From positions 1 to 46,453 of the forward strand of contig CAMCYJ010000021.1 in the NCBI GenBank assembly GCA_945883815.1: a stretch of DNA of 46,453 bases. Direction: 5' to 3'. The notes beneath the pieces were generated by a model. That model was not told the DNA's origin. It ran no database searches and saw only the letters and a program-made list of their open reading frames with translations. Made by a program: the position numbers and the translations under genes. This document shows, one piece after another, positions 6,601 to 30,353 of the stretch. Position 1 is the stretch's first letter, and every line of letters starts with the position of its first letter. Origin of the DNA: Akkermansia muciniphila. Lineage in GTDB: Bacteria; Verrucomicrobiota; Verrucomicrobiia; Limisphaerales; UBA9464.

Positions 6601-8038
6601 CTTCCGCTCCCATCGACCCTCTGCGATCCACGGCCTGAGCCGCCGCCGTCTGCTCATGGATAGCGCACTGGGCTTCGGCGCTCTAGCTTTGGCTTCGCTG
6701 CTGAACGGAACCAGCCAGGCGGCTCCGTCCACCGCCCTGGGGACCTCAGGCCAACGTGGCCGTGCTCACCACCGGCCCCGGGCGAAGAATGTCATTTTCC
6801 TCTACATGGACGGAGGTGTCTCGCAGGTGGACACCTTCGACCCGAAGCCACGCCTCACCCGGGAGGATGGAAAACCCTTCGGATTACGCATGGAACCGAC
6901 GCAGTTCGAGGACAACGGAGCCACCCTGGGCAGTCCGTGGGCGTTCCGACCGTGCGGCCAGAGCGGTCTGCCGGTCAGCGAGTTGTTTCCGCGGGTTGGT
7001 TCCTGTGCCGACGACCTGTGCGTGATCCGTTCGATGGTGTCACGTTTCTCCGAGCACAACGCAGCCAACTATTTCCTGCATTCTGGCAGCGGGATGGCGG
7101 GCCGCCCCAGCATGGGAGCCTGGGCCACCTACGGCCTCGGAACACAGAATCGCGACCTTCCCGGATACGTGGTGCTCGATGGGGGGCTCATTCCCTCGGG
7201 TGGCGTGGACTGCTTCGGACCTGGATTCCTGCCGGCCAGTCATCAGGCCTCTTTGTTGCGCAATGACCTTCCGGCTCTGGCCAATATCCAACCCTTGGAA
7301 GCAACCCCCGGCCTTCAACGCGACAAACTGAGTTCGGTCCGCGCTCTGGATGCCGCCTCCCTGGCCCGCCTGGGATCGCACGACGCCCTGGAGGCCGCCA
7401 TCGCCAACGCAGAACTGGCCTTCCGGATGCAGATGTCGGTGCCCGAGGCGACGGCCATCCACGGGGAATCAGAGGCCACCCGACGCCTCTACGGCTTGGA
7501 CGCCACTTCGGAGCATACCCGCGCCTATGGGCGGCAATGCCTCGTCGCCCGACGGCTCATCGAACGCGGGGTCCGCTTTGTCGAACTGACCTGCACCCGG
7601 GCCCACGGCAATGCCCGGTGGGACGCCCATGGTGATCTGCGCAACAACCACTCGGTCAACGCCCGAGCCATCGACCAACCCATCGCCGGTTTGCTGACCG
7701 ACCTCAAGGCCCGTGGCCTCCTGGATGAAACCGTAGTCCTATGGTCGGGTGAATTCGGCCGGACCCCCTTCGCCCAAGGCCGGGATGGCCGCGACCATAA
7801 TCCCCACGGATTCAGTCTGTGGATGGCCGGAGGCGGTGTTCGTGGAGGCATGGCCTACGGATCGACCGACGAATACGGCTACAAGGCCGCCGAAAACCCC
7901 GTCGAAATCCATGACCTCCATGCCACCCTGCTGCACCTCCTGGGTATCGACCATGAGCGACTGACCTACCGCTTCGGCGGCCGCGACCACCGCCTCACCG
8001 ATGTCCATGGCCGGATCCTCCGGGACCTCCTGGCCTGA
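6590..8038 (+). CDS. Tat-exported DUF1501 protein (copy 1)
   Basis: A 482-residue DUF1501 protein, a family in the alkaline phosphatase/sulfatase superfamily whose substrate is unknown. The N-terminus carries a twin-arginine signal (SRRRLLMDSALGFGALALAS). Recognisable family motifs are VIFLYMDGGVSQVDTFDPK, GSWATYGLG-like AWATYGLGTQN, VVLWSGEFGRTP, and HNPHGFSLWMAGGG, with GGRDHRLTDVHG at the end. Asp and His residues in these blocks are the likely metal ligands by analogy with the superfamily. The ATG lies inside the end of the preceding DUF1553 gene (11-base overlap), the standard pairing of these families. It has a relative at 31740-33185 and a decayed tail of a third at 15454-15534. Confidence 0.92.
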   Translation: MSPDFRSHRPSAIHGLSRRRLLMDSALGFGALALASLLNGTSQAAPSTALGTSGQRGRAHHRPRAKNVIFLYMDGGVSQVDTFDPKPRLTREDGKPFGLRMEPTQFEDNGATLGSPWAFRPCGQSGLPVSELFPRVGSCADDLCVIRSMVSRFSEHNAANYFLHSGSGMAGRPSMGAWATYGLGTQNRDLPGYVVLDGGLIPSGGVDCFGPGFLPASHQASLLRNDLPALANIQPLEATPGLQRDKLSSVRALDAASLARLGSHDALEAAIANAELAFRMQMSVPEATAIHGESEATRRLYGLDATSEHTRAYGRQCLVARRLIERGVRFVELTCTRAHGNARWDAHGDLRNNHSVNARAIDQPIAGLLTDLKARGLLDETVVLWSGEFGRTPFAQGRDGRDHNPHGFSLWMAGGGVRGGMAYGSTDEYGYKAAENPVEIHDLHATLLHLLGIDHERLTYRFGGRDHRLTDVHGRILRDLLA

Positions 8039-10607: not shown

Positions 10608-11387
10608 TTATTTTTCTGGAACTGTGATGAAGACCGAGGGGGCACCGTTTTGGCTCAAAGAATTTGAGATCGGATAGTCAAGTACTTGGTTAGATGCTCG
10701 GTTTATAAATGCTCGCCCTTCATACCCAAGACTCCGGACTGTTAATGTGCTATCATAAAGAGTCTCGCACGAGTTGGTAGATGATGGATTGCAGAACCGA
10801 AAGACGTACCACACAGGAATAGGGTCGCAAAGATGCAAAGTGGACTTAGGGTTCCGATCTAAACTAGCTTGCAACCTGAATTTGGTTGGACGAATTGTGG
10901 TTCTTTGTCCACCTACAATTGTACCGTCTTTACTTGTAATAATTCCACAGGTTAACGTACAATTTCCCCACCCGTGCGGGAAAGCTTCTGTACTAGTTGA
11001 ACCAGTTGGTATGTCGTTGAAAAAATTGATGCTTCGGTATTTCGACGTTCCATCAACTTCGTCAACCCAATGCACCCTTTCAACAGATTCTTTGGACCCA
11101 TGATCCCATGACTCCGACTTTTCGCTATATCTTTCGAGCTGAGCGCTTGATGAGTATATAGCGTAATCTGTGGCACTGGTGACGACGCTTGATCCTACGT
11201 CGTACAGAGTCTTGAACACGCTTGCTGCCTTTTCAAGCTTCTCTAGCTTACCAGTTACTTCTGCCTGTACCGATCCAGAAAGTAATGTCACGCCCAGCAC
11301 GACAAGAACAGTATTTGATTTGACGCTGAAAACGTTGGCCCATTCCATAATTAGACAGATGCCAAAAAAATAGATCATGTCAACCAA
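10608..11387 (-). CDS. AT-rich orphan gene: predicted secreted protein
   Basis: A 259-residue protein of unknown family. The TTG at 11387 was chosen because a full AGGAGG lies 7 bases upstream (11400-11395); the ATGs at 11378 and 11348 lack a spaced ribosome site. The sequence NTVLVVLGVTLLSGSVQA looks like a Sec signal with cleavage before EVTGKL, which would make the mature protein start near residue 43. Six or so cysteines sit in the second half (CTLTCG, LHLCDP, FRFCNPSSTNSCET), as in disulfide-bonded exported proteins, and the rest is predicted beta-rich. The G+C content is low relative to the surroundings. It is first in a likely two-gene operon with the gene at 9889-10566. The AGGAGG ends exactly where IS21 remnant DNA begins. 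Confidence 0.65.
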   Translation of the reverse strand: MVDMIYFFGICLIMEWANVFSVKSNTVLVVLGVTLLSGSVQAEVTGKLEKLEKAASVFKTLYDVGSSVVTSATDYAIYSSSAQLERYSEKSESWDHGSKESVERVHWVDEVDGTSKYRSINFFNDIPTGSTSTEAFPHGWGNCTLTCGIITSKDGTIVGGQRTTIRPTKFRLQASLDRNPKSTLHLCDPIPVWYVFRFCNPSSTNSCETLYDSTLTVRSLGYEGRAFINRASNQVLDYPISNSLSQNGAPSVFITVPEK

Positions 11388-11401
11388 AAATAATCCTCCT
11401 C

Positions 11402-11769
11402 AATCGATGAACCGAAGAGGGAACCATTATCGACCTCTTTCCGTCGCGCCATCTCGGGCTAGATCGAAAGACCATCCGGCGCTACCTGCGGCATCCGCCT
11501 GATCCGGACGCACCTCCGCCGGATCCACAGTCACCCAACATTTCGGCCGCCGGGAACGAGGCTGCTTCCGGCCCGGCTCCCGCCTCCTTGGCCATCGGTT
11601 TGACGGCCGATCCAAGGCCCGTCCCACCGGCGGTTGCCGATCCGGGGCGCACCAGTCGTTGCTCTCCTCATTCGGAACTCATCGAGGCCAAGCTCGAGGC
11701 CGGCCTGAGCGCCCAGCGCATCCACCAGGATCTCGTGGCCGAGGTCGGGTTCACCGGATCTTACCAGTC
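11402..11769 (+). pseudogene. istA: IS21-family transposase (istA) N-terminal remnant
   Basis: In one frame, TIIDLF then LGLDRKTIRRYLRHP, and later IEAKLEAGLSAQRIHQDL with EVGFTGSYQS, match the N-terminal helix-turn-helix part of IS21 IstA. Residues between DLF and LGLDRK that normally form the first HTH helix are missing, and an in-frame TGA lies just upstream at 11408-11410, so the start is lost. Homology ends at 11769, where short tandem repeats begin; the DDE catalytic domain and the istB helper ATPase gene are absent. It is inactive debris. It is a second mobile-element type in the decaying 8-15.5 kb zone. Confidence 0.7.
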
Positions 11770-11803
11770 GGGAACGGGGTCAGGGAACGGGGTCAGGGAA
11801 CGA
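11770..11803 (+). repeat. 13-bp tandem repeat ending the IS21 remnant
   Basis: The unit GGGAACGGGGTCA occurs at 11770-11782 and again at 11783-11795, followed by a partial third unit (GGGAACGA) from 11796. The repeats start exactly where IstA similarity stops. From general memory, similar GGGAACGGGGTCAGG tracts occur near RAYT-type REP elements in this phylum, but I cannot confirm that here. Confidence 0.6.
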
Positions 11804-11925
11804 TTTCCGAATTATGGGCCCGGGAAAGATGTCCGCTTCAGTGCCTCCAAAATCGAGAATCGTCCCCGAGGCCCCCGGATCCAAGCCCCACGACCGGCGC
11901 GACTGGCGGACACGCCCAGCGAACA

Positions 11926-15453: not shown

Positions 15454-15534
15454 AGGTCGGCCCACTGCCTCGGCGGCCGCGACCATCGCCTCACCGATGT
15501 CCATGGCCGTGTGATCCAAGCCGTGCTGGCCTGA
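15454..15534 (+). pseudogene. DUF1501 gene remnant: last ~27 codons only
   Basis: The frame ending in TGA at 15532-15534 reads HCLGGRDHRLTDVHGRV and then IQAVLA, almost the C-terminus of the DUF1501 protein at 6590-8038 (FGGRDHRLTDVHGRI, LRDLLA). At the DNA level about 39 bases (15471-15509) differ from the copy at 7976-8014 at only one position by eye. Upstream of about 15454 the similarity is lost and no start exists. It is what remains of a third DUF1501 gene, whose body was deleted. It lies between the methyltransferase and oligopeptidase B genes. Confidence 0.7.
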
Positions 15535-17909: not shown

Positions 17910-20039
17910 ATGTCGTTGCGCGCTGCCGCTGTGGGTTCCACGACCCTACTCGCTACCTTGAATTTGATGAGTGCTTCCCTCCAGTACCCCACCACGTCGA
18001 AGACCAACGTCGTGGACACCTACCACGGGGTCCGCGTCGAAGATCCCTACCGGTGGCTCGAAGACGACAACGCTCCGGCGACTCAAGACTGGGTGAAGCG
18101 CCAGAACGAAGTCACGTTCGGTTACCTTCAGGACATCCCGCAGCGTGAGGGCATTCGCAAACGGATGGCGCAGCTCTTCAACTTCGAGCGCTTCGGGGTG
18201 CCCTCCAAGCAGGGCAACCGATACTTCTTCAGCCGCAATGATGGGCTGCAGAACCAGAGCGTGTGGTACACCACCCCCCGCCTGGATGCCGAACCCACCG
18301 TCTTGCTCGACCCGAACAAACTCAGCACCGACGGCACTGTCGCGGTGGGCCGTTTGGAACCCTCTGAAGATGGCAGCAAGGTGGCCTATCAATTCTCGAA
18401 GAGCGGCAGCGACTGGCAGGAGATCCGCATCCGCGACGTCGCCACGGGCCAGGAACTGACCGACCGCATCGAATGGGTGAAGTTCTCGGGCCTCTCCTGG
18501 GCCAAGGATGGCTCTGGCTTCTATTATTCCCGCTACGACGCCCCGAAATCGGGAGCCGCGCTGACAGCGGTGAACGAGTTCCAGAAGGTATACTTCCACA
18601 CCATCGGCACGGCGCAGTCGGCCGACCGGCTCGTGTACGAGCGCAAGGACCAACCCAAGTGGGGCCTCGGAGCCGGCGTGTCCGATGATGGTCACTACCT
18701 GGTGTTCTCGGTCAGCCAAGGCACCGATACGCGAAACCGGTTCTTCTATCAGGACCTCCAAAAGGCCGGTTCTCCGGTTGTCGAACTGCTCAACGACTTC
18801 GATGCCAGCTACAACTTCGTGGGCAATGACGGTCCGGTGTTCTGGTTCCTCACGGACCTCAAGGCACCGCGCGGTCGCCTCATCGCCATCGATACCCGCA
18901 CTCCCGAACGCACCGCCTGGAAGGAACTCATCCCGCAATCGGAGGCCACGCTCACTCAAGTCAGCGTGTTGGGTGAACGCTTTGTCTGCGACACGCTGCG
19001 CGACGCCCGATCCGAAGTGCGCATCCACCAACTCAACGGGTCTTTCGAGAAGGCGTTGGAACTCCCCGGCATTGGCAGCGCCTCGGGCTTCGGCGGAAAA
19101 CGGGAAGACACCGAGACCTTCTTCGGATTCACCAGCTTCACCGTGCCCGGACGCATCTACCGCTACGATTTCAAGACCGGTGCCAGCACCCTGTGGAAAC
19201 AGCCCAAGGTGGCGTTCCAGCCCGATGACTTCGAGACCCGACAAGTGTGGGTCACCAGCAAGGACGGCGTGAAGGTGCCCATGTTCATCACCCACAAGAA
19301 GGGCCTCAAACCCAACGGCCACACACCCACGCTCCTGTACGGCTACGGCGGGTTCAACATCTCGCTCACACCGACCTTCAGCGTGGGCAACATGGTTTGG
19401 CTCGAAATGGGCGGCATTTACGCGGTGCCCAACTTGCGCGGCGGCGGCGAATACGGCGAAGAGTGGCACCAAGCAGGCACGAAGCTCCGCAAGCAGAACG
19501 TCTTCAACGACTTCATCGCCTCGGCCGAATGGCTGATCCAACAAGGCTGGACCTCGCCGAAGCAGCTGGCCATCCAGGGCGGATCCAATGGCGGCCTGTT
19601 GGTCGGAGCATGCATGACCCAGCGCCCGGACCTGTACGGAGCTTGCCTCCCGGCCGTCGGAGTCATGGACATGCTCCGCTTCCATAAATTCACCATCGGC
19701 TGGGCTTGGACGAGCGACTACGGATCGAGCGAAAACGAGAACGAGTTCAAGGCCCTGTACGCCTACTCGCCCTACCACAACCTCAAGCCGAAGACCGCCT
19801 ACCCTCCCACGATGGTCACCACCGGCGACCATGACGACCGGGTCGTGCCGGCCCACAGCTTCAAATTCGCGGCGCGTCTCCAAGAGGTTCACACCGGGCC
19901 GAATCCGGTGCTCATCCGCATCGACGTCAAGGCGGGCCACGGCGCGGGCAAACCGGTCTCCAAGCAAATCGAGGAACGCGCCGATCAACTGGCGTTCCTC
20001 GCTCGTCAATTCGATGTTCCGGCACCGAAAGCCCCCTGA
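17910..20039 (+). CDS. Prolyl oligopeptidase (S9A serine peptidase)
   Basis: A 709-residue prolyl endopeptidase that cuts short peptides after proline. The opening DTYHGVRVEDPYRWLED is the family signature at the start of the propeller. The catalytic domain has Ser559 in GGSNGGLLVGA, the Asp in TTGDHDDRVVP and the His in KAGHGAG, so the triad is complete. The ATG at 17910 gives a Sec-like leader (MSLRAAAVGSTTLLATLN), as usual for the exported form; the frame upstream to 17751 has no protein character. It is divergent from the oligopeptidase B-like gene. The mtnP gene follows after 38 bases on the same strand, and lhr after that, so the three may be co-transcribed. Confidence 0.92.
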   Translation: MSLRAAAVGSTTLLATLNLMSASLQYPTTSKTNVVDTYHGVRVEDPYRWLEDDNAPATQDWVKRQNEVTFGYLQDIPQREGIRKRMAQLFNFERFGVPSKQGNRYFFSRNDGLQNQSVWYTTPRLDAEPTVLLDPNKLSTDGTVAVGRLEPSEDGSKVAYQFSKSGSDWQEIRIRDVATGQELTDRIEWVKFSGLSWAKDGSGFYYSRYDAPKSGAALTAVNEFQKVYFHTIGTAQSADRLVYERKDQPKWGLGAGVSDDGHYLVFSVSQGTDTRNRFFYQDLQKAGSPVVELLNDFDASYNFVGNDGPVFWFLTDLKAPRGRLIAIDTRTPERTAWKELIPQSEATLTQVSVLGERFVCDTLRDARSEVRIHQLNGSFEKALELPGIGSASGFGGKREDTETFFGFTSFTVPGRIYRYDFKTGASTLWKQPKVAFQPDDFETRQVWVTSKDGVKVPMFITHKKGLKPNGHTPTLLYGYGGFNISLTPTFSVGNMVWLEMGGIYAVPNLRGGGEYGEEWHQAGTKLRKQNVFNDFIASAEWLIQQGWTSPKQLAIQGGSNGGLLVGACMTQRPDLYGACLPAVGVMDMLRFHKFTIGWAWTSDYGSSENENEFKALYAYSPYHNLKPKTAYPPTMVTTGDHDDRVVPAHSFKFAARLQEVHTGPNPVLIRIDVKAGHGAGKPVSKQIEERADQLAFLARQFDVPAPKAP

Positions 20040-20077: not shown

Positions 20078-20941
20078 ATGACTCCCCATCGCATTGGCAT
20101 CATCGGCGGCAGTGGACTCTATTCCATCGAAGGCTTCACCCGGCAGAAGTGGGTGAAGGTGAAGACTCCCTTCGGGGATCCCTCCGACGCTTTTCTCACG
20201 GGCGAACTGGCCGGCCGCGAGGTGGTGTTCTTGCCGCGCCACGGCCGCGGTCACCGGATCCTGCCGGGCGAGCTGAACCACCGCGCCAACCTCTGGGCCA
20301 TGAAGAAGCTCGGCGTGCAGTGGATCATCAGCGTCAGCGCCGTGGGCTCACTGCAAGCCAAGCTCAAGCCGTGCGACATCGTGCTGGTAGACCAATTCAT
20401 CGACCGCACCAAGCGCCCGACTGAGCACTCCTTCTTCGGTCGTGGGATCGTGGCCCACATCGCCTTTGCGGATCCCATTTGTGATGAGTTGCGACAATTG
20501 CTGCTCAAGGCGGCCAAGGCCGAGAAGGCCCGCGTCCACAATGGCGGCACCTACGTGAACATGGAGGGCCCCGCCTTCAGCACCCGCGCCGAATCGCTGG
20601 CCAATCACCGTGACAGATACGACGTCATTGGCATGACCAATTTGGGCGAGGCCAAGTGCGCCCGCGAGGCCGAGATCGCCTACGCCACCATGGCCATGGT
20701 CACCGACTACGACTGCTGGAAGGTCGACGAGGCCCACGTCACCGTGGAGATGGTCATCGCCAACCTCCACCGCAACGCCGGTCAGGCCAAGGCCATCTTG
20801 TCGCGGGTCATCCCCACCCTTCCCTCCGAACCGAACTGGCCCTGCCACGACGCCCTGCGCAATGCGATCATGACCGAGAAATCGCTTTGGCCCGCGGCGA
20901 CACGCAAGGCCCTGGGGCCGATTCTCCAAAAATACACCTGA
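20078..20941 (+). CDS. mtnP: S-methyl-5'-thioadenosine phosphorylase
   Basis: A 287-residue purine nucleoside phosphorylase-type enzyme that splits methylthioadenosine into adenine and 5-methylthioribose-1-phosphate in methionine salvage. The phosphate-binding start is IGIIGGSGLYSIEGF (residues 6-20), followed by FLPRHGRGHRILPGELNHRAN, the classic MTAP block (shortened here to RHGRGHRILPGELNHR). Later motifs TYVNMEGPAFSTRAES and IGMTNLGEAKCAREAEIAY bind the base and ribose. Length is normal for the family. It lies 38 bases after the prolyl oligopeptidase gene and 32 bases before lhr. MTA is a by-product of polyamine synthesis, so it connects loosely with the spermidine synthase-like gene at 38036-40606. 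Confidence 0.95.
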   Translation: MTPHRIGIIGGSGLYSIEGFTRQKWVKVKTPFGDPSDAFLTGELAGREVVFLPRHGRGHRILPGELNHRANLWAMKKLGVQWIISVSAVGSLQAKLKPCDIVLVDQFIDRTKRPTEHSFFGRGIVAHIAFADPICDELRQLLLKAAKAEKARVHNGGTYVNMEGPAFSTRAESLANHRDRYDVIGMTNLGEAKCAREAEIAYATMAMVTDYDCWKVDEAHVTVEMVIANLHRNAGQAKAILSRVIPTLPSEPNWPCHDALRNAIMTEKSLWPAATRKALGPILQKYT

Positions 20942-20973
20942 GGCCAGAAACCCACAGCGCGGTCACCACGGCT

Positions 20974-23787
20974 TTGCCCCGCACCCCGGACAATCCCGTG
21001 CCTTCGGTGATCCAAGACTGGTTCCGCCGACGGCACGGGCAGCCCACCCCCATCCAGGCGGCTGCGTGGCCCGTGATCGCCGAGGGCCGGCACGTGCTCA
21101 TCGTGTCGCCCACGGGCACGGGCAAAACCCTCGCGGCCTTTCTGGGAGTCTTGGAGGCTTTGGCTCAAGAACACGCCACGGGCCAACTCCGCGAGTCGCT
21201 CCGCTGCCTTTACGTCTCACCGCTGCGGGCGCTGGGCTATGACTTGGCCAAGAACCTCCAGACCCCGCTGCAGGAAATTTACGGAGACACCGCTCCCGTG
21301 CGTATCGGCCTCCGCTCCGGCGACACGAGCACCACCGAACGCCAACGCCAGTTCGACCATCCGCCCCACCTGCTGCTCACCACGCCCGAGAGCCTCTGCC
21401 TGATGCTCAGCCAGGAGAAGTGGCTGCCAAAGCTGGCCACGGTGCGTTGGATCATCATCGATGAATTGCACGCGCTCGCGGAGAACAAGCGGGGCGCTCT
21501 CCTGACCCTGACGCTGGAACGCCTGGAGCAGGTCATCGCATCGCCCCTCTCTGCTTCCGGAGCCTCCAACGGACCGTCTGACCTCAGCCCTCCGGCTCCC
21601 CGCCTGCAGCGCATTGGTCTCTCGGCTACCGTGCACCCCCGCGAAGACGCCGCCGCCTTCCTCGGAGGCACCGGTCGGGATGTGTCCATCATCGAGGCCC
21701 CCACGGCCAAACGGATGGATCTCCGCGTGTATTGCCCACTGCAACGCAATCCGTATCCGAAGGCCGGATTCACAGGCCAACGCCTCATCCGCGAGTTGGC
21801 CAAACTCATTTCCGCAAACCGTACCACACTGGTCTTCACCAACACCCGCAGCGGAGCCGAGTCGGCCACCTACTGGCTCAAGGAGCAACTGCCCGCGCTG
21901 GCAGAAACCATTGAGTGCCACCATGCCTCCCTCGACCGCGAACTGCGCCTCGATGTGGAAGACCGCCTCAAGCGCGGAGAACTGCGGGCGGTGGTGTGTT
22001 CTACCTCCCTCGAACTCGGCATCGACATCGGGAGCATCGACTTGGTGGTGCTGTTGGCCACGCCGAAGGGAGTCGCCCGAGCCTTGCAACGCGTAGGGCG
22101 CGCCGGCCACAGCATTCATGAGGTCAGCCGCGGATTACTCATGGCCACCAACGTCGGCGACTTGGTGGAATGCTGCGCCACCGCCTTGTTGGCGCGGGCG
22201 GGCCACCTCGACCGCATCCGCATTCCCGAAGCACCGCTCGACGTGCTCGCCCAGCAGCTCATGGGTTTGGCCTGCGTCGCGACGTGGTCGCGCGACGAAG
22301 CCTACCAGCAGGTCCAAAAAGCCTACCCGTACCGGAACCTCACCCGTCCCGACTTCGACGCGGTGCTCGATTTTCTGGCCGGCGGCGGCGAGTCCCTCCG
22401 CCGGCAGTACACCGACCTCTTCGGCAAAATCCACCTCGAGGCTGAAACCTTCGAAGTGCGCTCTGGCCCCGCCCGGCGGGACTTCCTCCAAAACATCGGC
22501 ACCATTTCCAGCGAGGGTGTGGTCCAGGTGCTCTTGCGGAACACTCGGATCGGCTCCATCGAGGAAGGCTTCTTCCGACGCCTGCGCATCGGGGATGTCT
22601 TCGCCCTGGCAGGCCGTGCCCTCCGGGTGGAGCGGGCTGGCGCCATGGAGTGCTTCGTGACCCGGGCCGATGGCACCACGCCCACGGTTCCACGCTGGGG
22701 TGCCAACAAGTTCCCCTTGGCCAACCGCGTGGCCCGCGAAATCCGGAGTTTCCGCCGTGAATTGCGGGAACGCTTCGAGGCAGGCGATGCGGCCGGCCCG
22801 CTACAAGATTGGATCAGCCGACGCCTCGACTGCGGGCCCACCAACGCGGCCGTGATCCACCGGGTCCATGCAGCGCAACACGGGATCAGCGAAATCCCCA
22901 CCGACCAATTCTTGTTGGTGGAGACCTTCCTGGAGCCCCCGGAGGTGGACGCGCCCCCCGCCCCCCAATCTCAACCCCTCCGGCGTCGCGGCGCGGCACC
23001 GTCAGCCACCGAGCCCGGGCAACTGGCCATGGCCGGCGTCTGGCTCGACCCGCGGGCCCGATCGACCCGAACTGCCTCGGCTTCGGGTGCGCCCGTGAGC
23101 TCCCCCAACACTCCCTCTCGAATCGCCCCCGCCCCGGGAGTGTCCGTCCGCCGCCATTACTTCTTTCACGCGCTCGTCGGGCGTGCAGCCAACGATGCCC
23201 TGGGTCGGGTCATTGGCCTGCGCCTGGGACGACTGCGTGGCGGCAACACCGTGGCTACGGCCGACGACTATGGATTCGTGCTCACCGTTTCGGCCGACCA
23301 AACCCTCAGCGCGGCTGATCTACCGGTCCTATTTTCCCCGGAAGGTTTTCAGGAAGACCTCCTGGCTTCGCTGCATAAATCCGATCTCCTCAAATACCAC
23401 TTCCGCAATGCGGCCCAGACCGGGCTGATGGTGTACCGCAACCACTTCGGATCTGAAAAAACGGTGCGGAAAGTCCAGTGGAGCACCGAGGTGATCTTCA
23501 ACGTGCTCGAACAACATGAGCCCCATCACGTGTTGCTGCGGGAAGCGCGCCGGGACGCCCTGCACACCTTCCTCGATGGCGAACGGGCCCAAGCCTTCCT
23601 CACCGATCTGCGAGACCAACACCGCCCCATCCGCCTGCGTGACGTGCCGATGGTTTCGCCGCTGGCCTTTGGCATGTACGCCACCAAGATCCGGGAAGCC
23701 CTGATGGTGGAAGACCCGCAAGAAACGCTGGAGCGCCTTTACCACCACTGGTGGGCCAAACTTGAAGAGGCCCAGAGCGGCTCGTAG
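20974..23787 (+). CDS. lhr: Lhr-type DEAD/DEAH helicase
   Basis: A superfamily 2 helicase (937 residues from the TTG at 20974) of the Lhr-core type linked to DNA repair. The motor has the Q motif (PTPIQAAAWP), Walker A SPTGTGKT near residue 50, DELH near 162, and motif VI QRVGRAGHS near 372. A winged-helix and Lhr C-terminal region follow. The start is uncertain: TTG 20974 or GTG 20998 both leave the fold intact; neither has a clear ribosome site. The frame is open back to 20656, but that would run through mtnP. The last 131 codons, plus 55 bases after the stop, are duplicated at 26806-27255; this copy is the one joined to the full gene. Confidence 0.9.
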   Translation: MPRTPDNPVPSVIQDWFRRRHGQPTPIQAAAWPVIAEGRHVLIVSPTGTGKTLAAFLGVLEALAQEHATGQLRESLRCLYVSPLRALGYDLAKNLQTPLQEIYGDTAPVRIGLRSGDTSTTERQRQFDHPPHLLLTTPESLCLMLSQEKWLPKLATVRWIIIDELHALAENKRGALLTLTLERLEQVIASPLSASGASNGPSDLSPPAPRLQRIGLSATVHPREDAAAFLGGTGRDVSIIEAPTAKRMDLRVYCPLQRNPYPKAGFTGQRLIRELAKLISANRTTLVFTNTRSGAESATYWLKEQLPALAETIECHHASLDRELRLDVEDRLKRGELRAVVCSTSLELGIDIGSIDLVVLLATPKGVARALQRVGRAGHSIHEVSRGLLMATNVGDLVECCATALLARAGHLDRIRIPEAPLDVLAQQLMGLACVATWSRDEAYQQVQKAYPYRNLTRPDFDAVLDFLAGGGESLRRQYTDLFGKIHLEAETFEVRSGPARRDFLQNIGTISSEGVVQVLLRNTRIGSIEEGFFRRLRIGDVFALAGRALRVERAGAMECFVTRADGTTPTVPRWGANKFPLANRVAREIRSFRRELRERFEAGDAAGPLQDWISRRLDCGPTNAAVIHRVHAAQHGISEIPTDQFLLVETFLEPPEVDAPPAPQSQPLRRRGAAPSATEPGQLAMAGVWLDPRARSTRTASASGAPVSSPNTPSRIAPAPGVSVRRHYFFHALVGRAANDALGRVIGLRLGRLRGGNTVATADDYGFVLTVSADQTLSAADLPVLFSPEGFQEDLLASLHKSDLLKYHFRNAAQTGLMVYRNHFGSEKTVRKVQWSTEVIFNVLEQHEPHHVLLREARRDALHTFLDGERAQAFLTDLRDQHRPIRLRDVPMVSPLAFGMYATKIREALMVEDPQETLERLYHHWWAKLEEAQSGS

Positions 23788-23842
23788 ATTGTCCACCGGC
23801 GTTGATGTCGGGAGCTCAATCCGAGAATCCGCAACACCGACC
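23393..23842. repeat. 450-bp direct repeat, copy 1 (lhr 3' end plus flank)
   Basis: It covers the last 395 bases of lhr and 55 bases beyond its stop. It is repeated in direct orientation at 26806-27255 with about ten mismatches by eye (about 2%) and no gap. The right end (23842) is where IS3 orfB sequence begins. Confidence 0.9.
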
Positions 23843-24239
23843 TCGAGGTTGGCGCAAAGCGTCGCGATGAAATGGTCGGATCTCATCGCGTGAACCCGTT
23901 CGTAACGGTCCCGGACGGTTCGGAGAGAATACCCAACGTTTTTTTTAGAATGTCCCGCTGCTCATGCAAGTGGCGGATCTCGCGACGAGCAGCATCCAGT
24001 TGAGATTGAAGATCCTCAACCGCAGGCCTCCTGCCCTCCGCCGCCGCCTTCCCCCCAGCTTCGGCGGGGGGCAGGAGCTTCCGCCAAGCGAAGAGCAGGC
24101 TTTCGTTGAGACCAAATTCTTTGGCAATGACCGCCGCAGACTTACCGCTCGATAACCAGTTGCGAACGACCTCGCATTTGAACGATTTATCAAACTTCCG
24201 GCGCGTTTTGGTAGGGGAGTCTTTGATGATGGATTCCAT
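23843..24239 (-). pseudogene. IS3-family insertion sequence remnant: intact orfA, orfB cut after ~20 codons
   Basis: The frame 24239-23883 encodes a full 118-residue OrfA: HTH (VVRNWLSSGKSAAVIAKEFG, ESLLFAWRK), then a leucine-zipper region and the typical end QRDILKKTLGILSE. A run of eight A's (minus strand, 23946-23939) is the usual slippery site for -1 frameshifting to OrfAB. In that frame OrfB begins (YERVHAMRSDHFIATLCANLE), which is the normal N-terminus of the transposase. It is cut at 23843, exactly at the edge of the lhr repeat, so the DDE domain is gone and the element is dead. The junction base sequence is informative: it shows that lhr-flank DNA was joined to a pre-existing IS. Confidence 0.8.
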
Positions 24240-24301
24240 GGTACAGGATACCTCTTACTCTCCGTCAGAGAAATCGAAGCAACCTCACCCGAAAGGCCAT
24301 C

Positions 24302-24817
24302 CAGTGGCGCGTCGCCTGGCAGCAAACCGCCGAGGAATCGCGGTTGCTACCCGAAGGCGGTTTGGTCCAGGAAAACATCCTCGACCTACCGGAGGACAAC
24401 CGTCCCGAACTCATCAATGACCGAGGCCGCCAGATGAAGGCCAAGCCGATCCGTAGGCTGTGCGAAGATCACGGCATGCCCCAGTTGTTTGCCCGCCCAC
24501 GGACTCCCAACGACAATCCCTTCATCGAGTCGGCGTTCAGCATGGTGAAATGGGTGCCAGAATATCCCGGGCGCTTCCTAGCTCACCACGAGGCCAACGC
24601 CTATTTCGCCCGGTACTTCAATTGGTAGGACACCGAGCACTATCACTCGGGCATCGACTACGTGACCCCGCAGCAGGCCCACGGCGTACTGCGGGAAAAA
24701 ATCATCGAAGAACGACGTGCAAAAATGTCCTCCCAACGCCGCCGGCGCCGGGAGGAAAATCAAAGACAAAAATCCGGCGTGCAAAAAACCAACAACAACG
24801 AAACCTTAATTTCCTGA
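24302..24817 (+). pseudogene. IS3-family transposase (orfB) C-terminal remnant with an amber stop
   Basis: The frame matches the last third of an IS3-type DDE transposase: INDRGRQMKAKPIRRLCEDHG, ARPRTPNDNPFIESAFSMV with the third catalytic acidic residue, then HEANAYFARYFNW. A TAG at 24626-24628 interrupts, but the same frame resumes with DTEHYHSGIDYVTPQQAHG, the standard block; a Tyr codon to TAG change would explain it. The natural C-terminus is reached (24815-24817, basic tail). The N-terminal half, with the first catalytic Asp residues, is absent. It is of a different subgroup and strand from the OrfA at 23883-24239, so these are two elements, not one. Confidence 0.75.
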
Positions 24818-24824
24818 TTCGTAG

Positions 24825-24938
24825 CGTAATAAACCACTTTCCGAGGTCTTTGATTCAAAAACGCGCCGCAAGTCCACCGAGAATCTGCGAATCGACCACC
24901 GAGGCATCGAATCGCTGAAGGTCATCAACCTCGAATAA
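24825..24938 (+). pseudogene. Possible C-terminal tail of a gene upstream of the ATPase
   Basis: Between the IS3 remnant and the ATPase, one frame reads as protein for 37 codons (SEVFDSKTRRKSTEN, IDHRGIESLKVINLE) and ends in TAA 15 bases before the ATPase ATG. The spacing is that of operon neighbours and the sequence is not low complexity. No start is present. It could be the last part of the gene that preceded the ATPase before truncation. No family is assigned; chance coding is possible. Confidence 0.3.
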
Positions 24939-24953
24939 ACGAAGTCCCAAGCC

Positions 24954-26132
24954 ATGCGCATCACTCGAATCCAACTCAAAAACTGGTTGAACTTCCAAAA
25001 GCTAGACACCGGGGCACTGGGAGAGCGCGTCTTCATCATCGGCCCTAACGCGGCGGGGAAATCCAACCTCCTTGAGTCGCTGCGCTTCTTGCGCGACGTC
25101 GCGTTACCCGCCGGGAAAAAACCCCAGGGCGGCGGCCTGCAAAACGCGGTGACCACCGACACGCGCGGCGGTCTCTCAAAACTTCGTTGCCTCAACGCCA
25201 AGAAAGACACCGAGGTACGCCTGCAAATCGACCTCACGTCCGACGATGGCACGAAGTGGACCTACGACCTCGGCTTCAAGGGCGAAGGTCAGGCCAATAA
25301 CCGCATCAAACTCAGCCGGGAGCGCATTACGAAGAACAGTGCCGTGCTGTGCGACCGCCCCGACGCCAGGGATAAGGCCGATCCTGAGCAACTCACGCAA
25401 ACCCGGCTGGAGTTAACCAACGCCAACGCGGCATTTCGCGAGTTATCTCACTTTTTCAGCGAGACGACTTACCTGCACCTAGTGCCCCAGTTGCTCAAAT
25501 ACAGTTCGAAGATTGGCGGCACGGTGATTGAGAGCGATCCATTTGGTCAGGGGTTTTTGCAGCGCATCGCCGCCACCAACGAGAAAACCCGAAAGGCACG
25601 GCTAAACCGTATTCAGAAGGCGCTCGATACCGTAGTGCCGCAGTTCAAGGAACTCGATTTCCGACAGGACAAAGTGACTGGCCTTTACCACTTGGAGGCC
25701 AACTTCACCCACTGGCGTCCCACCGGGGCGTGGCAGCGGGAGAATCAATTGTCCGACGGCACTCTTCGCCTCATCGGCCTGCTCTGGTCGCTCATGGAGG
25801 GCAATTCGTTGCTGCTTCTTGAAGAACCCGAACTCTCCCTCAACGAGGAGGTCGTGCGTCAGTTGCCCAAGGTCATTCACCGCATCCAAACGCAAAATAA
25901 GACTGAGCGGCAGGTTTTCATCACGACGCACAGCGAGGCTCTGTTGTCGGATAGCAGTATCCCAGCCGAGGAGGTGCTTCGCCTCTCCGCTACCGACACC
26001 GGCACGGAAATAAGGCCGCTCGATAAGCAGGAAAAAATCATGCTCAAAAGCGGCCTGAGCGTCGCCGAGGTGATGCTGCCCTCGGTGAATCCAGCCAAAG
26101 CCAACCAACTATCACTCGCGCTGTCGTCGTGA
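24954..26132 (+). CDS. AAA family ATPase (AAA_21/SMC-like) of a putative defence pair
   Basis: A 392-residue ABC/SMC-type ATPase with an intact fold. Walker A is GPNAAGKSNLLES at residues 30-42; the ABC-like signature LSDGTLRLIGLL is near 267; Walker B is LLLLEEPELSLN near 287; and the switch His is in FITTHSEALL near 321. The middle (about 90-250) is the helical insert usual in this family. Such single-domain ATPases typically work with a small nuclease-like partner in anti-phage systems (OLD/Gabija, PARIS and RloAB/AbiL are analogues; this is by organisation only). The downstream DUF4276 gene overlaps it by one base (TGATG), so the pair is translationally coupled. Flanks are IS and lhr repeats; the gene looks recently acquired and unbroken. 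Confidence 0.85.
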   Translation: MRITRIQLKNWLNFQKLDTGALGERVFIIGPNAAGKSNLLESLRFLRDVALPAGKKPQGGGLQNAVTTDTRGGLSKLRCLNAKKDTEVRLQIDLTSDDGTKWTYDLGFKGEGQANNRIKLSRERITKNSAVLCDRPDARDKADPEQLTQTRLELTNANAAFRELSHFFSETTYLHLVPQLLKYSSKIGGTVIESDPFGQGFLQRIAATNEKTRKARLNRIQKALDTVVPQFKELDFRQDKVTGLYHLEANFTHWRPTGAWQRENQLSDGTLRLIGLLWSLMEGNSLLLLEEPELSLNEEVVRQLPKVIHRIQTQNKTERQVFITTHSEALLSDSSIPAEEVLRLSATDTGTEIRPLDKQEKIMLKSGLSVAEVMLPSVNPAKANQLSLALSS

Positions 26133-26731
26133 TGTTGTCCACGGTCTATCTCGTCGCCGAAGACGTGCCCGGCCTCGCCGTGGGGCGAAAGCTGGTCGCG
26201 GAGCAATCGTCGCTCAGTGTCTATCGGGAAAAAAACGGACATGGCTTCGGCAACTTGAAGAAAAAGGCGCCGTCCTACGAGCAGATGGGGAAAGACGGAG
26301 TCCCCGTGCTAATGCTGACCGACCTCGACACGGCACCGTGTCCGTCGGGCAAGATCCATGACTGGCTCGGACGTAAGCCCAGCCGAGGTTTTCTTTTTAG
26401 AATCTGCGTGCGCGAGGTCGAGGCGTGGTTGCTGGCGGATCGCGAGGCGATGGCCGCGTTCCTAAAAATTAAAGAAGACCAGGTGCCGTCAGCGCCGGAG
26501 TCGCTGCAAGACCCCAAGGCCTCGCTCATCAAGTTGGCCCAAAAAGCACCGCGCCCGATCCGCGTCGGACTGACACCAAGGGGCAGCGCACCCATCGGCC
26601 CTGACTACAACGATCTGCTGTCGGGCTTTATTTCCGACCTCTGGTCGATCTCCCGAGCATCCGATCGCGCCCCGAGCCTCGCTCGCGCTCGCCAACGCAT
26701 CGCCGAACTCGCCAGCGCCGTCGCCGCCTGA
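26132..26731 (+). CDS. DUF4276 family protein, partner of the ATPase
   Basis: A 199-residue protein of the DUF4276 family, which is predicted to have a Toprim-like fold and often sits after an AAA_21 ATPase. Visible family blocks are YLVAEDVPGLAVGRKL near the N-terminus (acidic residue), VLMLTDLDTAPCPSGKI (Asp-x-Asp), and CVREVEAWLLADREAM, the DUF4276 hallmark. The three acidic patches match a metal-dependent nuclease or Toprim site. The ATG at 26132 was chosen because it overlaps the ATPase stop by one base; a GTG three bases upstream is possible. By analogy with ATPase plus Toprim-effector systems, the ATPase would sense and this protein would act on nucleic acid. That role is inferred, not shown. 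Confidence 0.75.
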   Translation: MLSTVYLVAEDVPGLAVGRKLVAEQSSLSVYREKNGHGFGNLKKKAPSYEQMGKDGVPVLMLTDLDTAPCPSGKIHDWLGRKPSRGFLFRICVREVEAWLLADREAMAAFLKIKEDQVPSAPESLQDPKASLIKLAQKAPRPIRVGLTPRGSAPIGPDYNDLLSGFISDLWSISRASDRAPSLARARQRIAELASAVAA

Positions 26732-26742
26732 ACCGCCAGCCC

Positions 26743-26781
26743 ATGAAATCCCTCATCATCAATTCCCCCTACTTCCTTTAG
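26743..26781 (+). pseudogene. Possible truncated start of a third operon gene
   Basis: An ATG 11 bases after the DUF4276 stop opens a frame reading MKSLIINSPYFL and then meets a TAG at 26779-26781, just before the repeat junction. The spacing fits an operon and the IINSPY start resembles the openings of type III restriction-like helicases, from memory only. It could be the beginning of a larger gene lost when the lhr duplicate was joined. Twelve codons are too few to be certain. Confidence 0.3.
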
Positions 26782-26805
26782 GGTGATCTTCAGAAAGACC
26801 TTCGG

Positions 26806-27255
26806 AATACCACTTCCGCAATGCGGCCCAGACCGGGCTGATGGTGTACCGCAACCACTTCGGATCTGAAAAAACGGTGCGGAAAGTCCAGTGGAGCACC
26901 GAGGTGATCTTCAACGTGCTCGAACAACATGAGCCCCAGCACGTGTTGCTGCGGGAAGCGCGCCGAGACGCCCTGCACACCTTCCTCGATGGCGAGCGGG
27001 CCCAGGCCTTCCTCACCGATCTGCGGAACCAACACCGCCCCATCCGCCTGCGTGACGTGCCGATGGTTTCGCCGCTGGCCTTTGGCATGTACGCCACCAA
27101 GATCCGGGAAGCCCTGATGGTGAAAGACCCGCAAGAAACGCTGGAGCGCCTTTACCACCACTGGTGGGCCAAACTTGAAGAGGCCCAGAGCGGCTCGTAG
27201 ATTGTCCACTGGCGTCGATGTCGGAAGCTCAATCCGAGAATCCGCAACACCGACC
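26806..27255. repeat. 450-bp direct repeat, copy 2 (lhr 3' end plus flank)
   Basis: It repeats 23393-23842 with about ten mismatches; three change residues (His to Gln, Asp to Asn, Glu to Lys), as in DNA freed from selection. It carries the last 131 codons of lhr without a start, the stop at 27198-27200, and the native spacer to fmdB. Bases 26788-26805 also resemble 23347-23365, as if about 27 bases (23366-23392) were lost from this copy. Confidence 0.9.
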
Positions 27256-27268
27256 CCATGTCTCCACC

Positions 27269-27808
27269 ATGCCGATTTACGAATTCGCCTGCCCCAAGTG
27301 CCGCAAGGTCTACAGCTTTCTCAGCAAGCGCGTCGCACCGTCGCACACACCGGCGTGCCCCAAGTGCGGCAGCAAACGCCTGAGCAAAGAAATCAGTCGG
27401 TTTGCTTTTCTCAATGGCGCACCAGAACCCGCCGCGACCGGCGATGGCGGCGAAGGCTCTGACCTCTCGGGCGAACCGGGGATGGAAGGGGCGGGCATGC
27501 CTGACATGGAGGATCCGCGGATTGCGAGGGCCATGTCAGAGATGGAGCGCGACATGGACCATCTCGACGAAAACAACCCCAAGCACATGGCCCATTTGTT
27601 GCGGAAGATGAAGGACATCCTCCCATCGGGATCCGTGCCCAAGGATTTCGAAGTAGCCCTCAAGCGCCTCGAAGCCGGCGAAGACCCGGAGAAAATTGAA
27701 GCCGACATGGGCGACGTGCTCGGCGACCTCATGGGCGGCGAAGACGGCTCCGGCGGAGGCGGCGGAGGCGGTGCCTACTCCAAGGACCCGGGGCTCTACG
27801 ATTACTAG
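27269..27808 (+). CDS. FmdB-type zinc-ribbon protein
   Basis: A 179-residue protein that begins with the FmdB/CxxC zinc ribbon: MPIYEFACPKCRKVYSFL, then CPKCGSKRLSKEISRF; the two CxxC pairs bind Zn. The ATG at 27269 gives the canonical MPIYEF start. The rest is acidic and helical (DMEDPRIARAMSEMERDM, PKHMAHLLRKMKDILP), then a Gly-rich stretch and a DPGLYDY tail. Family members are small regulatory or nucleic-acid-related proteins without a fixed function. Before island 1 arrived it would have stood about 70 bases after lhr, which suggests one transcription unit; now 3.4 kb separates them. The amidase fragment begins right after its stop. Confidence 0.8.
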   Translation: MPIYEFACPKCRKVYSFLSKRVAPSHTPACPKCGSKRLSKEISRFAFLNGAPEPAATGDGGEGSDLSGEPGMEGAGMPDMEDPRIARAMSEMERDMDHLDENNPKHMAHLLRKMKDILPSGSVPKDFEVALKRLEAGEDPEKIEADMGDVLGDLMGGEDGSGGGGGGGAYSKDPGLYDY

Positions 27809-28087
27809 GTCCCCTCACCCGTCCACCCGCTCGTCGAAGGACGGCAGGAATCGCGGGGTACGGCGGGCCTGGGCGGCGGTCTCGAAGGCGTGGGCCAGGC
27901 CGATGAGCCGCCCTTCGCTCCAGGCACGGCCGAAGAACGAGAGACCCACCGGCAGCCCAAAGATCAGGCCGGCGGGCACGGTGACGGACGGGTACCCGGC
28001 GACGGCGGCGATGGATGAACTGCCGCCGAGCCCGCCATCTCCGGCGAACAACTCGATGGCGTGGGCCGGACCGGTGGTCGGTGCCAC
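27809..28087. repeat. 279-bp direct repeat, copy A (amidase 3' end)
   Basis: It matches 30075-30353 over its full length without gaps, with about 27 mismatches by eye (about 10%). It holds the last 90 codons of an amidase on the minus strand. The inner edge (28087) is where similarity stops abruptly, inside the VAPTTGP block. Confidence 0.88.
27815..28087 (-). pseudogene. Amidase C-terminal fragment
   Basis: The minus-strand frame encodes the last 90 residues of an amidase (APTTGPAHAIELFAGDGGLG, FGLPVGLSFFGRAWSEG, RFLPSFDERVDG). It is about 90% identical in DNA to the end of the intact amidase at 30081-31700. The catalytic Ser-cisSer-Lys region lies upstream in the parent and is absent here. 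The gene was either split by, or duplicated with, the hipBA insertion. Many of the base changes are silent, so this piece evolved as coding DNA for some time. Confidence 0.85.
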
Positions 28088-28351: not shown

Positions 28352-29578
28352 TCAGGAACCCAGGCGAACCGCCTCGTCGGTGAGGCCATGCTCGAACGCA
28401 CTGGAATAGGCGGCCATCGAGCCGGAGGGGATCCTGAGTTGTCGTGCCTGCTTCCGCCAGTTGACCACCGCCGCGGCAACCTCCCGGAGAATCGTCTTGG
28501 CCTCCGGGCCGCGGAGCCCGAAGCGGGACGCGGCATCCAGGGCTGCCTCGATGCTCGGAGTGTCGTGCTGCTCGGATAGGGCGGTCTTGGGTGTTCTGGC
28601 CCGATCGATTTCGGGCACCGGATTGAGATCGTACGCCGGGGAAAGGGACCATTTGTCGGGCGACTTCATGAGGAACCCGTGGTTTCGGAGATGATCGTCG
28701 TAGTTGCTCGCCAGAAGGGAAAACACCAAGCGTCTCCAGAGTTCGTGAAGATCTCCCCGGACATCCTCACCGAACTGCCGGATGCCATCGGCGATCTGGG
28801 TGTAGGCTCCCGGATCCCCCGGCGACAGCCCCAGGAGCGTGTTCGCCGAGAGGAAGGGAATCCGTCGCCCCCCGTCCCGATCAAAGCGGGAGATCAACGA
28901 GACGCTTCGGCCCTTCGAGTGAATCCACCGATGCTCGGCGACCCGGATGCCGGCCTTGGCCGCCAAGGCCATCGCCAGGATCTCACCGGCGGCCATGTCA
29001 CGGGTGTCGTCGGGCTTTGGAAACTTGGCGATGGCCAACCGGCCGTCCGGCAAGGCCACCACCGATTTGGGCCGGGCACCACCGATCGGCGAACCCGATC
29101 CCAAGAGGAAGCGAAGGTCCCTCGCCGTCTCGGTCTCCGAGTGCACGGCATCGGCCGCGTTGATCAGGGCGGCAAGCTGCACCAGCGGCGGAATCCGCCC
29201 ATCACCGGGAGTCAGGAAGGGACCGTCGGGATCGGATCGGAAACGCAACGCCCCGATCCGTGATGAATCCTCGAGGGCCAATACATAGTCCATCTCCCGA
29301 TAGGGTTTGGATCCGAGGACCTGTCGACGAACCGCCCGCTCGATGAGCACTCGTCCCCATCGATCCGGACCACAGTCCTGGAACACTCCGAACAATTGGG
29401 CCGCATGGTGAGGTCCGCGTCGTAATGGAAGATTCGTGGGATCGACTGCGAAGGCCCCGGGGCTGGCAAGCCAGTCGGCACCGTATTCGAAGGTCACCGC
29501 GGAACCCCGGTCGGCCGAGTGGAGCGTGCCGACCCGGTGGGTTCTCCCATGCCAGTCGACATGGACTTCGACGCTCAC
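28352..29578 (-). CDS. hipA: HipA-type serine/threonine kinase toxin
   Basis: A 408-residue HipA toxin, a kinase that phosphorylates glutamyl-tRNA synthetase (in E. coli) and induces dormancy. The HipA N-terminal domain spans about residues 10-110 (GAFAVDPTNLPLRRG, CGPDRWGRVLIERA). The kinase part has the Gly-rich ATP loop GSPIGGARPKSVV near 170, an ATP lysine in LAIAKFPKP, catalytic NYDDHLRNHGFL near 300, and the metal motif SLSPAYDLNPVP. All key residues are present, so it is probably active. Its start overlaps the hipB stop by 4 bases (ATGA). It lies inside a segment bounded by two amidase tails. The target here is not known. Confidence 0.88.
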   Translation of the reverse strand: MSVEVHVDWHGRTHRVGTLHSADRGSAVTFEYGADWLASPGAFAVDPTNLPLRRGPHHAAQLFGVFQDCGPDRWGRVLIERAVRRQVLGSKPYREMDYVLALEDSSRIGALRFRSDPDGPFLTPGDGRIPPLVQLAALINAADAVHSETETARDLRFLLGSGSPIGGARPKSVVALPDGRLAIAKFPKPDDTRDMAAGEILAMALAAKAGIRVAEHRWIHSKGRSVSLISRFDRDGGRRIPFLSANTLLGLSPGDPGAYTQIADGIRQFGEDVRGDLHELWRRLVFSLLASNYDDHLRNHGFLMKSPDKWSLSPAYDLNPVPEIDRARTPKTALSEQHDTPSIEAALDAASRFGLRGPEAKTILREVAAAVVNWRKQARQLRIPSGSMAAYSSAFEHGLTDEAVRLGS

Positions 29579-29889
29579 GGGACTTTCCTCCGGATCCGCC
29601 GAGGCAGACGTTGTTCATCGAGCCGCAGGGCCAAGAGGTCTTGGGCAGGCTCAGCGAGGCGCGCCAGACGATCGTGCAATTGAAGGATGAATGCCGCCGT
29701 CGCCAGCGTGCCGATCGAGACGGTCGGATCGCCTTTCTCCAATCGCCACAAGGTGCTCCTGCCGACAAAAAGTCGTGCCGCCATGTCCGCTGTGGAGATG
29801 CCGCGTCGTCGTCGGGCCAACGCCAGATCGCGGCCCAGATCGCGCAATGCGCGGACCGCTGGCAACGGAAGTGACTCTTGAACGCCCAT
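29575..29889 (-). CDS. hipB: HipB-type helix-turn-helix antitoxin
   Basis: A 104-residue antitoxin and autorepressor. The HTH (XRE/Cro) domain covers residues about 20-75: ALARRRRGISTADMAARLFVG shortened here to RRRGISTADMAARLF, with the recognition helix in GRSTLWRLEKGDPTVSIGTL. The last 25 residues are the usual extended tail that contacts HipA. It is encoded just before hipA with an ATGA overlap, as in classical hipBA operons. A perfect palindrome lies 7 bases upstream of its ATG, the expected HipB operator. Confidence 0.85.
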   Translation of the reverse strand: MGVQESLPLPAVRALRDLGRDLALARRRRGISTADMAARLFVGRSTLWRLEKGDPTVSIGTLATAAFILQLHDRLARLAEPAQDLLALRLDEQRLPRRIRRKVP

Positions 29890-30074: not shown

Positions 30075-30353
30075 GTCCCCTCACCCATCCATCCGCTCGT
30101 CGAAGGACGGCAGGAATCGCGGGGTGCGGCGGGCCTGGGCGGCGGTCTCGAACGCGTGGGCCAGGCCGATGAGTTTTCCTTCGCTCCAGGCGCGGCCGAA
30201 CAACGAGAGGCCGACTGGCAATCCGAAGATCATCCCGGCAGGCAGCGTGATCGACGGGTATCCGGCGACGGCGGCGATGGATGAACTGCCGCCGAGGCCG
30301 CCATCACCGGCGAGCAACTCGATGGCGTGGGCCGGACCGGTGGTCGGTGCCAC
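30075..30353. repeat. 279-bp direct repeat, copy B (amidase 3' end)
   Basis: It is the in-gene copy, matching 27809-28087 at about 90%. It covers the last 90 codons of the intact amidase plus six bases after its stop. Outside both edges the two flanks are unrelated, so hipBA sits precisely between the copies. Confidence 0.88.

Follow-up and report, generated by a model that had tools for sequence, protein, structure and literature searches.

We analysed a 46,453-nucleotide stretch of DNA, here called the window, that constitutes contig 21 of a genome of Akkermansia muciniphila (GenBank assembly GCA_945883815.1, contig CAMCYJ010000021.1). Between an lhr-type helicase gene and an fmdB-type zinc-ribbon gene, the window carries a 2,963-bp insertion that is flanked by two 450-bp copies of the lhr end and that contains an intact pair of candidate defence genes, HEC-01A and HEC-01B, between stubs of a type III restriction–modification locus. 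We judge it somewhat more probable than the converse that lhr and fmdB were separated by illegitimate joining of a broken piece of a defence locus, whose ends attached at points 450 bp apart. The duplication itself is real and is explained in outline; the mechanism is one that we infer. How defence genes that lack a recombinase enter chromosomes is an open question, and integrase-free entry is a known but little understood route. At lhr, the two joints of one such event seem to have survived, and among relatives both the unoccupied site and the source locus in whole form can be seen.

The two copies (positions 23393–23842 and 26806–27255, both on the forward strand and spaced by 3,413 bp) aligned pairwise over 450 bp without a gap and with exactly ten mismatches (97.8% identity), in agreement with the preliminary description of this DNA, which had counted about ten. 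The mismatches divide the alignment into perfect-match runs of 133, 26, 29, 8, 20, 0, 95, 86, 5, 8 and 30 bp. Copy 1 is the genuine 3′ end of lhr and comprises the final 131 codons, the stop codon (23785–23787) and 55 bp of spacer. The lhr open reading frame (ORF; 20656–23787, forward strand; Pfam domains DEAD, Helicase_C, WH_Lhr and DEAD_assoc) was given its start at 20656 mechanically; the alignment to relatives begins at about 20991, and the real start probably lies near 20991–20995. Copy 2 is a 5′-truncated relic that runs into the native spacer: it holds a 131-codon fragment, in frame and free of stops, and misses the 5′ part of the gene, so the earlier statement that the right-hand copy has no start was correct. 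The right neighbour, fmdB (27269–27808, forward strand; Zn_ribbon_8), starts 13 bp past copy 2 and was matched at E 0.001, in some cases weakly, in 49 of 59 genomes, its own included. As a background we took a further 800 kb of this genome as 40 stretches of 20 kb, in two sets of 20 with a minimum spacing of 300 bp or 500 bp. Direct-repeat pairs of some kind occurred in 8 of them (3 of 20 and 5 of 20), several being tandem gene families or dispersed repeats, and we dropped the claim that repeats occur only at the window. None of the 40 stretches held a pair equally long and similar, the longer pairs being at most 88% alike. We conclude that the 450-bp match is far beyond chance and, as had been argued, too long for the target-site copy of a transposon.

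We then polarized the ten differing sites against relatives. Three are derived in copy 1 and five in copy 2; of the remaining two, one is ambiguous and likelier derived in copy 2, and at the other the relatives differ from both copies. Three sites alter residues, as the preliminary description had stated, but its assignment of all three to copy 2 did not stand: copy 2 acquired D to N and E to K, whereas Q to H arose in copy 1, the base of copy 2 at that site being found in five of six relatives, including the nearest. The copies differ by four synonymous and three non-synonymous changes, against 21 and 3 between copy 1 and the nearest relative, G001 (Fisher p = 0.11), an excess of non-synonymous changes that is suggestive only. 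It is plausible that copy 1 is the copy under selection, because it is the one joined to lhr.

Derived changes in both copies fit divergence after duplication as well as they fit a donor strain that was already 2% divergent. In the latter case, incoming DNA would have recombined with the lhr end either on one side, with an illegitimate far end, or through one crossover with a circle that bore the lhr end, and the two copies would represent two strains. The divergence required is well within the 7% that separates copy 1 from G001, and a ComEC-type protein is present; homology-facilitated illegitimate recombination is known in competent bacteria, according to excerpts of PMC3240628, and excerpts of PMC3784515 describe pneumococcal merodiploids that arise through interchromatid integration. 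The one-sided form, however, needs a donor in which the fragment was already fused to a 5′-truncated lhr end, and derived changes in both copies are what divergence after the duplication predicts. We regard an origin from a 2%-diverged donor as unlikely.

We next compared the locus with those of 18 relatives of the same genus. In five of them (G003, G009, G010, G014 and G016) lhr is followed directly by fmdB. Because these relatives carry an empty site, the 2,963-bp segment (23843–26805) is an insertion into an ancestral lhr–fmdB neighbourhood, which bears out the earlier proposal that this order had been split by about 2.96 kb of DNA. In G004, G006 and G012 about 3 kb separates lhr and fmdB, with a gene that distantly resembles part of the lhr helicase; in the other ten relatives one of the genes or the whole neighbourhood is absent, or the contig ends. 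HEC-01A was absent at E 1e-40 from all 18, and scoring of all candidates gave just two weak matches (E 5.7e-5 and 4.6e-4), in G014 and G017. None of the five intact lhr–fmdB sites shows a bare tandem copy of the lhr end, and this bears on whether tandem duplication of the lhr end came first, with DNA inserted later exactly between the copies. Tandem duplications are common in bacteria, which speaks for such an order of events, but the later insertion must then have struck the copy junction, and we find this sequence of steps barely credible. As a separate observation, the G001 contig (L125) terminates within the lhr 3′ end and a contig of another assembly (L148) starts there, as if the lhr 3′ end were variable or repeated in those assemblies too.

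The insert begins with the remnants of two insertion sequences (IS). Remnant A (23843–24288, reverse strand) is of IS3 type and consists of a whole orfA (23883–24239; HTH_Tnp_1) and about the first 15 codons of orfB; the entire element, with orfA and an rve-domain orfB, is carried by G005. Its end at 24288 interrupts remnant B (24288–24871, forward strand), which, to judge by relatives' genes, represents a second, different IS and retains the 3′ part of its rve-type transposase gene: from 24288 it is 96% identical to G001:C113 and 92% identical to G007:C45, and the whole gene of G001 has rve and rve_3 domains. The 3′ end of remnant B, at about 24871, adjoins what an alignment to G477 identifies as the last 16 or so codons and the stop of a type III methyltransferase gene, mod (24891–24938, forward strand). 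Two whole genes follow on the same strand. HEC-01A (24954–26132) encodes an AAA_21 ATPase of 392 amino acids (PADLOC HEC-01A, E 2.5e-141; Pfam AAA_21) whose N-terminal 49 residues match GajA in the PDB (E 1e-4). HEC-01B (26129–26731) encodes a DUF4276-like protein of 200 amino acids (PADLOC HEC-01B, E 1.1e-49); its match to DUF4276 (E 2.8e-5) is under the Pfam cut-off, and the PDB gave no match up to E 1. The first ten codons of a type III res gene (26743–26772, forward strand) and a 33-bp filler (26773–26805) complete the insert.

A whole version of this arrangement exists in G477, a distant relative whose HEC-01A is 80% identical and in which the gene order is mod (N6_N4_Mtase / MTase_III), HEC-01A, HEC-01B and res (ResIII). 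The alignment of the window to G477 is continuous over 24891–26772 (1,892 columns, 70% identity overall), and its last 30 bases, of which 29 are identical, cover the start of res and end at codon 10. Because the alignment runs from inside mod to codon 10 of res, we read the insert as a piece of a restriction–modification locus whose outer genes have been reduced to stubs on either side of intact HEC-01 genes, and this suggests that a candidate defence pair left its restriction–modification host as a fragment. The preliminary description had overlooked both this origin of the insert and the presence of a second gene-end duplication beside it. The intact pair may now act as a stand-alone candidate defence system. 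The name HEC-01 stands for 'Hma-embedded candidate'. As in the PADLOC database, the window pair matches both models and consists of overlapping genes in the order A then B; it differs from the database pair in lying outside a restriction–modification host, behind a housekeeping helicase gene. In the literature that we searched, no paper contained the term DUF4276 and none named both HEC-01 and PADLOC. At the G477 locus (L230, G477:C247, 1544–14976), the genes for Wadjet JetD/JetC adjoin the type III locus with its embedded HEC-01.

Four ORFs of the insert were scanned with Pfam and PADLOC models, and none encodes an integrase or site-specific recombinase, the sole recombinase-related one being the IS orfA. 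We rejected an IS-borne composite transposon: both IS remnants lie on the left, nested and truncated, and do not bracket the cargo. A plasmid and a viral origin were considered and rejected as well: the 72,556 plasmid records searched contained no match at E 1e-30, and the pattern search used on viral contigs found no relative of HEC-01A there, a phage collection not being part of that search.

Both joints of the insert are readable. At the left joint (23843), remnant A is broken about 15 codons into orfB and abuts copy 1 directly, with 3 bp (ACC) common to the spacer and the IS element. At the right joint, codon 10 of res is followed by the 33-bp filler and then by copy 2. The 18-mers of the filler had no match in the fetched loci except the window copies. 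We also tried an upstream extension of copy 2, on account of a 13-bp likeness (12 matches) between the filler and lhr upstream of copy 1, and rejected it as not significant, since 50 of 1,000 shuffles and 56 of 1,000 random window segments scored as high. The insert ends in broken IS and res sequence and not in element ends.

These ends bear on the earlier suggestion of an integrative element that brings along and restores the 3′ end of the gene it targets, as e14 does in icd. The likeness to e14 is that the body of the gene is whole and the displaced 3′ end lies at the far side, and indeed the duplicated part is the 3′ end of a gene and lhr is intact. Unlike e14, the lhr insert has no element ends and no integrase in the four ORFs scanned; in addition, the HEC-01 locus of another genome, G108, duplicates the 5′ end of a gene instead. 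The suggestion was not borne out: an integrative element is close to refuted, and we give it hardly any probability.

The capture that we favour would have proceeded as follows. A fragment would have extended from inside the IS3-type element, itself nested with the second IS in a type III mod gene, through the end of mod and the two HEC-01 genes to codon 10 of res. On its left, this fragment would have become attached at 23842, a position in the spacer that lies 13 bp ahead of fmdB; on its right, it would have become attached within lhr on a sister chromosome, at a point 450 bp to the left of the first, so that a long target duplication resulted. lhr retains its own end and fmdB its leader, copy 2 is a passive relic, and the direct repeats should permit loss of the insert through ordinary homologous recombination. 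A single event is favoured because the cut IS end, directly, and the cut res end, across 33 bp, both adjoin the duplicated segment. The joining itself may have followed a microhomology-mediated or template-switch route.

Insertion with long target duplication has a precedent in the restriction–modification genes of Helicobacter pylori, as proposed by Nobusato et al. 2000 and described in excerpts of PMC3031569, PMC1643837 and PMC4978471; the reference lists of PMC3874152, PMC2654758 and PMC11708052, as far as excerpted, also cite that study. The lhr locus is a further case, with unusual cargo and readable joints: relatives have a single-copy empty site, and a long target repeat stands on both sides. 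What it has in common with the H. pylori case, as excerpted, is an insertion relative to an empty-site relative, and a long stretch of target on both sides; the cargo also seems to stem from a restriction–modification locus, of which stubs of mod and res remain. Here, unlike in H. pylori, only stubs remain of the restriction–modification genes and the HEC-01 pair is the part of the cargo left intact; moreover, IS remnants stand at one end, the host is a verrucomicrobium and the sequence of both joints is legible (3-bp overlap, 33-bp filler). A second likeness is to homology-facilitated illegitimate recombination and merodiploid formation, in which, according to excerpts of PMC3240628 and PMC3784515, foreign DNA is joined at one end without homology and a stretch of the host is doubled through the sister chromosome; in pneumococcal transformation, bridging of sister chromosomes gives duplications of about 100–900 kb and one of 3.3 kb (PMC3784515, in excerpt). 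Those systems, as excerpted, need a homologous or repeated donor arm, whereas none was identified at lhr.

We asked how often HEC-01 genes are flanked by repeats elsewhere. At E 1e-40, 16 of 320 genomes from the order had HEC-01A, as did 9 of 387 drawn from the phylum, the host genome being counted in both. Among 24 HEC-01 loci we evaluated 22 (14 scored by script, 8 read by hand from the listing of flank matches) and omitted L189 and L200, whose shorter flanks measure 325 and 3 bp. Direct repeats within 2.5 kb enclosed HEC-01 at 4 of the 22 loci; the corresponding figures were 36 of 2,920 for control positions within this genome and 5 of 449 for positions elsewhere in HEC-01 loci. Without the window the count was 3 of 21 (p = 0.002), and for repeats located in genes alone 2 of 21 (p = 0.027); both values are rough, as the control positions overlap. 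In G134, which belongs to another family, the HEC-01 genes are flanked by gnd on one side and by a duplicate of its 3′ end on the other (495 bp at 91.5% identity, plus 64 bp; L208, G134:C158, 1544–5859), the same layout as at lhr. In G108, HEC-01 lies within a type III locus whose res gene has its 5′ end copied (78 bp, 88%) on the far side of HEC-01; in G131, HEC-01 is bracketed by repeats that are about 74% identical. Three further loci were not scored as enclosing: G477, where a 339-bp, 94% direct repeat brackets the whole mod–HEC-01–res locus from 2.9 and 4.3 kb away, G073 (192 bp; far copy 6.3 kb away and also inverted) and G332 (56 bp). With a similar layout in a different family and at a different core gene, as in G134, the pattern can be tested throughout a phylum.

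The same layout bears on whether the lhr arrangement is a chimeric assembly of two strains. The host genome is in 189 contigs (90.9% complete, 3.1% contaminated), the named relatives are Verrucomicrobia metagenome assemblies, so that this assembly is probably one likewise, the 133-bp identical run is difficult for short reads and the G001 contig terminates in the same lhr end. On the other side, each copy has differences of its own, both flanks stand in the order found in relatives, and G134 is a separate assembly from another family that shows the layout at a different gene. A chimera is improbable.

The G477 locus also provides a starting point for a different history, in which a type III locus, complete and with HEC-01 embedded in it, entered with a long target duplication and decayed afterwards: IS insertions and a deletion would have removed mod, and a second deletion would have removed res and perhaps part of copy 2. 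Two nested IS remnants on the left and the repeat that brackets the whole G477 locus are consistent with this, and excerpts of PMC3031569 and PMC1643837 report insertion with long target duplication for restriction–modification genes. Decay would, however, need two deletions that ended at, and 33 bp from, a copy boundary, or deletions that trimmed the copies, and none of the 18 same-genus genomes has a complete locus at this site. We hold insertion of a complete locus followed by decay to be possible but doubtful.

Several points weigh against capture of an already broken fragment. Later decay may account for the loss of res and of the left part and for some trimming of the copies, in which case the duplication need not have measured 450 bp at first. 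A search for Ku genes gave none in 19 genomes of the genus, against a match in 1 of 14 control genomes, the host genome being 91% complete; classical end joining is therefore unlikely. A ComEC-type protein was matched in 17 of the 19, and this is offset by matches in 10 of 14 control genomes. The 3-bp overlap is weak evidence, the filler matches no known source, the sister-chromosome step is hypothetical and the window is a contig of a draft assembly. In the wider comparison, 18 of the 22 HEC-01 loci lack such a repeat within 2.5 kb, a single stretch supplies 23 of the 36 control enclosures, and the repeats in G131, one of the four enclosing cases, lie in no recognized gene. The likeness of G134, G108, G131 and G477 to the lhr locus is one of layout. 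A general enrichment of long repeats at type III mod loci of the order also failed to appear, with 2 of 20 loci against 44 of 1,400 control positions and thus no clear excess.

Further gene-end duplications lie near the insert. Immediately to the right of fmdB, which thus has a gene-end duplicate on both sides, a 279-bp, 90% copy of an amidase 3′ end (27809–28087 and 30075–30353) brackets a pair of genes for a HipA-like kinase and a helix–turn–helix (HTH) protein (28352–29889). In G009, an amidase 3′ fragment likewise adjoins hipA (L035, G009:C196, 12052–12499). This hipA is 94% identical to that of the window over 353 bp, compared with 82% for core neighbours, and the difference suggests that this toxin gene moved horizontally. 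The G009 amidase fragment is too conserved to discriminate over the 96 bp compared, with 91 of 96 positions identical to each of the window fragment, the window amidase and the G018 amidase. In G017 (L169, G017:C361), HipAB lies on the opposite side of SNF2 and SWIM genes from the amidase. The HipAB module thus appears to shift place within a small neighbourhood between species, and its position beyond SNF2 and SWIM in G017 indicates a history more complex than one insertion; a simple insertion account of the amidase and HipAB duplication is weakened by that position and by the non-discriminating G009 fragment. In G016 (L036, G016:C3, 11065–11120), a 56-bp amidase 3′ fragment stands right after fmdB, followed by a small gene pair that by eye looks like RelB/YafQ and then by the amidase gene.

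A broader reading would join these neighbourhoods. HEC-01 pairs, and perhaps toxin–antitoxin pairs such as the nearby HipAB, might spread in the Verrucomicrobiota without an integrase, in the form of broken pieces that lodge at core-gene ends and cause a long target duplication; the copied gene end would then serve as a homology arm for exit as a circle and for re-entry into the same gene in another species, and hipA beside the amidase fragment would be one such re-entry. We put this forward as a speculation that we consider unlikely, having lowered our estimate slightly because the amidase fragment over 96 bp cannot separate the two sources.

Elsewhere in the window, 74 bp from the 3′ end of a DUF1501 gene recur at 82% identity (7965–8038 and 15461–15534) and bracket 7.4 kb of FG-GAP/UnbV-type genes and unknowns. 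The bracketed segment is absent from G001 and G010, parts of it occur in G003 and G016, and the far copy retains native downstream sequence. In another genome (L214, G000:C26), a 516-bp, 88% repeat and a 136-bp repeat (11164–11808 and 18228–18925) stand about 7 kb apart, and by eye they seem to span a VapB gene and the beginning of a gene for a PIN toxin.

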